A DNA stretch of 64,000 nt, taken from Oscillospiraceae bacterium. GTDB taxonomy: Bacteria > Bacillota > Clostridia > Oscillospirales > Oscillospiraceae. The translations under genes were made by a program, and so were the position numbers. Below, piece after piece: positions 30,050 to 47,012 of the stretch (positions are counted from its first letter, which is position 1; every line of letters begins with the position of its first letter). The notes beneath the pieces were generated by a model. It saw only the letters and a program-made list of their open reading frames with translations. It was not told the DNA's origin and searched no databases. The DNA is taken from contig SVMD01000004.1 in assembly GCA_015067615.1 (NCBI GenBank), positions 787-64,786 on the forward strand, given 5' to 3'.

Positions 30050-30500
30050 TGAAACGCCGGCAGATGGGTTCGAGCTTCCCCGTTGAACATTTCTGCAACA
30101 AAAATGTCCCTGCGCCCACACCATCCGGATGCGTTCGCAAGGACATGGATTCTCCCACAGGCCCGCCCTCTTAGGTGCTTGGGAAACCTGGTCGAAGGTG
30201 TCGATCCCGTCGAGCCCTCAGGCATACGCGCTATCCGGCACTACTGCAACCTAAATGATCTTCCGCCTACATCCGTACCGGATGCATTCGGAAGATCATG
30301 GATTCTCCCACGGGCTAAAAAGTGTCCACCGGACACTTTTTGCACCAGTGTGCGCATTGTATTATTGTATGGTTGCCACCGGCAACCATCAAGATTATTA
30401 ATCCGCTGCGCGGAGCACCACTGGTGCCGCCCTTTCGAATCCGTCCTCATCCTCTGCCAAAAAGAAAAGCCACCCTGTCGGGTGGCTTTTCTTTTTGGCA
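30050..30500. repeat. tRNA-end multi-hairpin element (locus A), adjoining tRNA-Gln
   Basis: Nested stems GATCTTCC/GGAAGATC, AAAAAGTGTCC/GGACACTTTTT, GCACCAGTG/CACTGGTGC, ATGGTTGCC/GGCAACCAT, bounded by GGATTC/GAATCC matching the tRNA T-arm. Confidence 0.8.
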
Positions 30501-43679: not shown

Positions 43680-43900
43680 GAGTGGACGATATAGGACTCG
43701 ATAGAATTAAGGTGTTGCGCCCGTCGATGTATTATTGAATGGTTGCCACCGGCAACCATTCGGATTTTGATCCGCTGCGCGAAGCACCACGGGCGCAAGC
43801 AGGTGTCCACCGGACACCTGCATTTAAATTGTTCGAGTCCTATTTCTAATACCATACCAAAAAGAAAAACCACGCCGAAAGGCGTGGTTTTCTTTTTGGT
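43680..43900. repeat. tRNA-end multi-hairpin element (locus B), adjoining tRNA-Val
   Basis: Stems TTGCGCCCGT/ACGGGCGCAA, ATGGTTGCC/GGCAACCAT, GCAGGTGTCC/GGACACCTGC; bounded by ATAGGACTCGA / TTCGAGTCCTAT copies of the tRNA T-arm. Confidence 0.82.
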
Positions 43901-46559: not shown

Positions 46560-46937
46560 AAAAAAGGGATTGCGTCTACCGAACTCTCTGCAAAGTCTGA
46601 ACGGCTTCAATCCACATCCGTACCGGATGCGTCTTGAAGCCAGAGGGACTCTCCCACGGCCTAAAAACAGTCCACCGGACTGTTTTTACCCTCCCTTCGG
46701 TCGGGCCGGCCTTTCGAGTCCCGTCCGGTCCAAAAAGAAAAAAGGGAGGCCGAAGCCTCCCTTTTCTTTTTGGTACACCGGAAGGGACTCGTTTGCATTT
46801 CTGCCCCGTTGGGGCAGAAAATATTGTGTTGCCGCCGTCGAGCCGGCGGCAAGCGGCGCTCATCCGCACCGCATTGAAATGTTCGAGTCCCTCCGGGCAG
46901 CAAAAAAGCGGCTGCCCGAACGGGCAACCGCTTTTTT
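46560..46937. repeat. tRNA-end multi-hairpin element (locus C), two modules in tandem adjoining tRNA-Arg
   Basis: Stems GGCTTCAA/TTGAAGCC, TAAAAACAGTCC/GGACTGTTTTTA, TTTCTGCCCC/GGGGCAGAAA, TTGCCGCCG/CGGCGGCAA; two copies of GGTACACCGGAAGGGACTCG and two terminator hairpins. Confidence 0.82.
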
Positions 46938-47012
46938 GGTACACCGGAAGGGACTCGAACCCCCAACCCTCGGAACCGGAATCCGATGCTCTATCCATTG
47001 AGCCACCGGTGC
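46937..47012 (-). tRNA. tRNA-Arg (anticodon CCG)
   Basis: Minus strand GCACCGGTGGCTCAATGGATAGAGCATCGGATTCCGGTTCCGAGGGTTGGGGGTTCGAGTCCCTTCCGGTGTACCA. Confidence 0.93.

Follow-up and report, generated by a model that had tools for sequence, protein, structure and literature searches.

The tRNA-Arg(CCG) gene of the window (the whole 64,000-nucleotide stretch of Oscillospiraceae DNA that was analyzed) is followed by two palindromic modules in tandem, which belong to different classes. This arrangement is probably a serial-insertion array at a tRNA gene, built of non-autonomous, site-specific DNA modules, with less confidence attached to the enzyme. The evidence counted for insertion includes tRNA-specific arms, covariation without an excess of G.T mismatches (class 1), variable copy number, comparisons of occupied and unoccupied sites, restriction to one genus, defence and toxin-antitoxin genes between modules, a tail shared by gene units, and signs that interiors have passed between tRNAs of one genome. 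The tRNA genes of this gut-bacterial genus would then be anchors for growing DNA arrays.

The array behind tRNA-Arg(CCG) and the two module classes

The anchor tRNA-Arg(CCG) (46937..47012; ARAGORN and Rfam tRNA) lies on the minus strand, as do the module parts of the window located below, and T copy 1 corresponds to its 3' portion (46937-46957). The sequence TTTTTGGTACACCGGAAGGGACTCG occurs exactly at 46767-46791 and 46933-46957, i.e., over 25 nt at a spacing of 166; by our own estimate, 700 bp would contain such a repeat by chance with an expectation on the order of 1e-10. Read along the minus strand, the tRNA end CGAGTCCCTTCCGGTGTACCA is followed by a terminator palindrome, an inverted T-arm CCGGAGGGACTCGAAC and three hairpins, and then by a second CGAGTCCCTTCCGGTGTACCA, a second terminator palindrome, an inverted T-arm ACGGGACTCGAA and a different hairpin set that closes on GAGTCCC.

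Module 1 is of class 1. Its terminator palindrome (46901..46938; inverted repeat I2) is a terminator-like site on the plus strand, and the inverted T-arm copy (46881..46897; inverted repeats I3 and I7) forms the left arm of the base stem. Hairpin A (46853..46872), supported by its fold and as covarying helix 2, is an atypical version, while hairpin B (46829..46852; fold and covarying helix 3) has the stem TTGCCGCCG/CGGCGGCAA. Hairpin C (46798..46820), with the stem TTTCTGCCCC/GGGGCAGAAA, was found by folding and in the scan for terminator-like sites, and is optional in the class. The far end of the module is T copy 2, CGAGTCCCTTCCGGTGTACCA, at 46771..46791 (direct repeat D1). The module folds with z scores of -6.4 and -5.0 on the two strands, relative to shuffled sequence.

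Module 2 is of class 2, with a folding z score of -4.2 against shuffled sequence. It has a terminator palindrome that is terminator-like on both strands (46730..46773; inverted repeats I4 and I6) and an inverted T-arm copy (46713..46729; inverted repeat I1). The module body (46640..46720) rests on a fold, on covariation and on a match of R1, the class-2 covariance model, at G000:C8:47386-47508; it closes on GAGTCCC at 46645-46651, near which lies a partial third T copy. The tail hairpin (46600..46640) is part of the same match, and the distal tail present in the class-2 units of relatives is missing here. A first-pass annotation of this DNA had described the two tandem modules, two terminator hairpins and the two stems between the T copies, and all of these are borne out, the tRNA-end repeat being exact over the 25 nt given above. 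It lacked the inverted T-arm after each terminator, the difference in class, the partial third T copy, and the presence of the same architecture at tRNA-Val and tRNA-Gln.

At tRNA-Val(GAC), a class-1 module (about 43682..43896) is matched by the class-1 covariance model R2 at G000:C8:44479-44627, and class-2 modules lie behind tRNA-Gln (about 30100..30495; R1 match at G000:C8:31041-31229). A hairpin repeat of ~65 nt (GTGGTGCTTCGCGCAGCGGAT..GGTTGCCGGTGGCAACC..) lies within hairpins of two of these modules, at 43727-43790 in hairpin B of the tRNA-Val module and at about 30360-30425 in one of those behind tRNA-Gln. It was considered as part of the tRNA-linked system and rejected; it is a dispersed repeat with no tie to tRNAs, and its copies (13 matches in the genome of the window, G000, 23 in G002 and 18 in G009) are mostly away from tRNA loci.

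In general, a module consists of a terminator palindrome, an inverted T-arm copy, two or three hairpins, and a direct copy of the tRNA 3' end. The majority of such units measure 140-230 nt and contain no integrase. The direct copy runs from C56 to CCA and regularly begins near T-loop position 55/56, and the tRNA itself remains intact next to the module. The class-1 layout is NNNNNTCGAA, ATTTAAAT, hairpin A (loop usually GGT), hairpin B (loop often GCTCGA), CACCTTA, the optional hairpin C and CGANNNNN. The class-2 layout is NNNNNTCGAAAGGGC, two hairpins, GCCCGTGGGA and GAGTCCC, followed by the tail hairpin and the distal tail. It was first supposed that TCGYACCA, the end of the class-2 tail, always derives from the target; this was dropped, as the unit behind the tRNA-Arg(ACG) of genome G060 has a tRNA-Leu-like end. 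The hairpin AAAACAGTCCGGTGGACTGTTTT is also present in viral contigs (L213-L216) that seem unrelated, with no tRNA in the fetched stretch; since it is found there, it is a wider repeat and is not diagnostic on its own.

tRNA-matched arms and covariation

The right arm of the module is identical to positions 56-63 of its own tRNA in 51 of 60 first modules, and the left arm in 46 of 60. Exact arm matches to the T sequences of other tRNAs are limited to 1 in 720 comparisons for the right arm and 3 in 720 for the left. These first modules represent 25 anticodons, and 58 of the 60 start 40-63 nt past the tRNA end.

Standard pairs make up 95.8% of the paired cells in class 1, where double-change cells number 699, compared to 162 in shuffles, and the covariation score is 0.636, compared to at most 0.099 when slid. 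Class 2 shows similar covariation behaviour. Strong covariation and the presence of terminator palindromes beside the tRNA could suggest a structured RNA or a regulator in the tRNA trailer, for which G-U wobble should be kept in the stems of the transcribed strand, as it is in tRNA. Class 1 does not meet this criterion. G.T and A.C mismatches are equally rare in its aligned helices (39 and 35, respectively), and 9 G.T and 8 A.C mismatches are found in independently located hairpins, whereas 97 tRNAs at these loci have 113 G.T and only 2 A.C in their acceptor and T stems. The tail stem of class 2 (alignment A4, helix 5) is a partial exception that lends the RNA reading some support, with G.T outnumbering A.C, which sets it apart from the other helices. 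The block is also placed past the terminator, is missing from many tRNAs, occurs in zero to four copies and is often truncated. Rfam searches at gathering and relaxed thresholds returned only tRNA, with the remaining matches being chance matches to palindromes, so there is no credible match to a known RNA family in Rfam. An RNA function is thus very nearly untenable. Because selection on RNA structure should leave G-U pairs, what is conserved is more likely a DNA palindrome, or arms homogenized by template switching. The structure conserved in the modules appears to be one of DNA rather than RNA; the modules do meet the integron criterion of a palindromic site that has variable stem sequence and folds, by both covariation and predicted folds.

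Template switching during replication, with no dedicated enzyme, might also build such units. The polymerase would snap back first at the terminator palindrome and then at the hairpin block, leaving direct, inverted and direct copies of the tRNA end; quasipalindrome correction would keep the stems complementary and homogenize the arms to each tRNA, and unequal exchange between T copies would expand the arrays. This fits the direct-inverted-direct order of the copies and the near-identical tandem duplicates seen in L047 and L155. The near-perfect Watson-Crick stems, with G.T and A.C equally rare, are as expected from the homogenization of inverted repeat arms, a process described in PMC8604942. 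However, template switching does not account for a genus-wide conserved family of hairpin loops inserted beside many tRNAs, for gene units with shared tails, or for the insertion of a module of a different class beside the tRNA in the window. As the sole explanation it is unlikely, though the main contender besides insertion, and it may well act in addition to insertion. Should it both make and maintain the arms, the modules would preserve a natural record of template switching at tRNA genes across the genome.

Probable serial insertion, spread and cargo

The genome of the window (2.26 Mb in 31 contigs) has a module or truncated module at ~20 tRNA transcription units, with tRNAs for Arg, Val, Gln, Gly, Asp, Glu, Tyr, His, Pro, Leu, Ser, Ala and Lys, and the arms bear the T-arm sequence of the tRNA concerned. 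The units without a module include Asn beside rRNA, Met and Leu(TAG), and two further module-free tRNAs look occupied by ordinary integrated elements. Among 60 relatives, 27 have class-2 matches and 29 have class-1 matches, every one of them in the genus of the window. The near relatives with titled records are uncultured Oscillospiraceae, several of them from animal guts. In an order-wide sample of 298 genomes, matches to the class-1 model were confined to this genus, apart from one weak hit outside. The two covarying classes are thus found essentially only in this genus, where many tRNAs still have no module and truncated modules are frequent. The sample consists of draft MAGs with one genome per species, no reads and no strain pairs; contigs break at identical modules, and module counts cover the fetched stretches only.

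The serial insertion proposed by the first-pass annotation is supported by the variation in copy number, which it had suggested comparing across strains; the comparison of occupied and unoccupied sites made here is between species of the genus. tRNA-Arg(CCG) is followed by no module in the stretch read (e.g., L040, L043-L046 and L048-L049), by one in some relatives, by two in G000, G002 and G019, and by four in G035 and L155. The DNA past the second T copy of the window resembles the tRNA-adjacent class-2 module of G018 (L073; 86% over 119 nt) of G029 (L033; 81% over the same length) and of L042 (77% over 130 nt), and it also aligns, at the same spacing, with L035 (79% over 70 nt). Since the class-2 unit is adjacent to the tRNA in three of these relatives, it appears to be the older one, with the class-1 unit inserted later between it and the tRNA; this is the simplest order that the alignments suggest. 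G008 has a module exactly between tRNA-Arg and the terminator that directly adjoins the tRNA in G011 (L050; 90% over 40 nt), and the DNA past module 1 in G009 (L038) matches the tRNA-adjacent terminators of L035 and L044. The newest module adjoins the tRNA in both the window and G008. Remnants of ancient tRNA gene duplication, the simpler origin against which the annotation had set its proposal, do not fit; only the 3' part with the T arm and acceptor is found again, both direct and inverted, flanking a conserved hairpin set behind 25 anticodons. The annotation also had each event regenerate a terminator. Whether an insertion carries the terminator along or regenerates it is not shown, and neither is the enzyme.

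Modules appear to be inherited at a tRNA and also to spread between tRNAs, since both kinds of nearest relative are in excess. The nearest relative is in the same genome at another tRNA for 26 of 117 modules, and has the same T sequence in another genome for 19 of 117, with about 7-8 expected from pair counts in each case. The interiors behind tRNA-Gly and tRNA-Val in G000 are nearly identical save for a nested insertion, and their arms and terminators differ. Taken alone, the import of a tRNA end leaves unexplained how an interior acquires arms for a new tRNA.

Neighbouring units enclose genes in some cases, over distances of about 0.6 to 8.6 kb and possibly 34 kb. At tRNA-Arg(CCG) in G008 (L191, G008:C44:23500-29700), the 4.7 kb between two modules encodes a HaeIII endonuclease (PF09556, 369 bits), two C5-methylases and the Shedu protein SduA. 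At tRNA-Tyr in G018 (L194, G018:C53:4500-7109), ~1.1 kb between two modules encodes a ParE toxin and a Phd/YefM-like antitoxin, the latter scoring 26.7 bits, slightly below the Pfam cut-off of 29.8. The tRNA-Tyr of G008 has three modules separated by ~2.1 and ~1 kb with unknown ORFs, and an HTH gene lies between modules at tRNA-Val in G011. Seven gene units with different cargo from six genomes (L062, L064, L065, L067, L071, L072 and L163) have a common tail of ~95 nt, GAAATCCGAAAAACCGTTGG..CCTATAAGAACACTCGCACCA, that ends in CCTATAAGAACAYTCGCACCA or nearly so, and a leader with GTTGCAYGTTTATGTGCAAC is also common to three of them. Some cassettes start with an apparent native tRNA terminator, so some of the cargo may have reached arrays already in place by a different route.

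Larger intervals are also present in G018, with two modules 8.6 kb apart at tRNA-Gly(GCC). Among three contigs of this genome (L171-L174), C43 ends in tRNA-Leu(CAA) and a module, C41 spans 34 kb and carries identical modules at its two ends, and C51 starts with the same module, possibly representing a large insert or an assembly break. In an IMG/VR prophage contig (L212) and in G027 (L187), a tyrosine integrase gene ends at the 3' part of the tRNA and a module follows directly, so ordinary tRNA-integrating elements do sit between a tRNA and a module. One prophage in the viral contigs is inserted upstream of a module. Accretion of ICE and IME elements at tRNA genes is known (PMC5704250), and the arrays could be the decayed remains of tRNA-targeting phages or ICE/IME/CIME elements, each of which left an att copy of the tRNA 3' end. 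The prophage integrases of L187 and L212 agree with this, and the large G018 arrays may contain ICE/IME remnants. None are found in the short units, most of which are 140-230 nt without an integrase, and accretion leaves unexplained the conserved hairpin block, the inverted T-arm and the occurrence of the same block behind 25 anticodons. Such an origin is quite improbable.

If serial insertion is correct, the modules may move as folded DNA, either cruciform or single-stranded, that would be recognized in trans by a recombinase, perhaps one of the tyrosine type; this is inferred, and no such enzyme has been identified. The crossover would be in the T-loop near position 55/56, with the tRNA 3' end in the role of attI and the module in the role of attC. 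If the arms were re-copied or underwent gene conversion, the interior could pass from one tRNA to another. All genomes examined have generic tyrosine recombinases. The integron integrase IntI (NCBIfam TIGR02249) was above cut-off in none of 40 genomes, the sub-threshold matches being generic tyrosine recombinases, and genes for Y1 (REP-associated) transposases are absent from several module-rich genomes (G002, G011 and G012). Neither enzyme is supported as a helper.

It is possible that a single unidentified recombinase system underlies a tRNA-anchored analogue of the integron. It would anchor at the near-universal T-loop (GTTCRA) that at least 25 kinds of tRNA gene provide, insert folded-DNA modules and gene cassettes (restriction-modification, Shedu, toxin-antitoxin) beside the tRNA, and have the tRNA-matched arms rebuilt at each site. 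This is a tentative proposal with a little less than an even chance of being right. If a single trans-acting recombinase is indeed responsible, gut bacteria would possess a platform for gene capture that offers dozens of anchor sites in each genome and is linked to defence and toxin-antitoxin genes.

Comparison with known systems

We know of no earlier description of insertion repeated behind most of the tRNA genes in a genome, with inverted arms that match the tRNA and covariation at the DNA level, and no paper on tRNA-linked palindromic modules was found among open-licence papers. Integron arrays (attI/attC, IntI) are similar in having an anchor site and an array of units that end in a palindromic site with variable stems, in the position of the newest unit beside the anchor, and in their toxin-antitoxin and defence cargo. 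They differ in that the modules lack the integron integrase, use many tRNA anchors rather than one attI, mostly have no gene, and have a base stem that matches the anchor tRNA. The attC core boxes are also nearly absent from the module base, with RYYYAAC in 1 of 117 modules and GTTRRRY in none of 117. Membership among the integrons fails on the integrase and the core boxes.

Like MITE and REP-BIME elements, the modules are short, non-coding, palindromic, multi-copy and non-autonomous, but they are bound to tRNA 3' ends, have tRNA-specific arms, and occur in abundance in several genomes without the Y1 transposase. Tycheposons, the tRNA-targeting elements of marine bacteria, carry a tyrosine recombinase and likewise have cargo inserted at tRNA genes; we know of no Tycheposon hairpin modules with tRNA-matched arms. 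The modules share one criterion of CIME-type units, in that direct copies of the tRNA 3' end lie on either side and recombination genes are lacking, and resemble CIME/IME/ICE accretion in their tandem arrangement between such copies (PMC5704250). They differ from it in their length of 140-230 nt, in the conserved hairpin block and the inverted T-arm, and in their occurrence at 25 anticodons of one genus.
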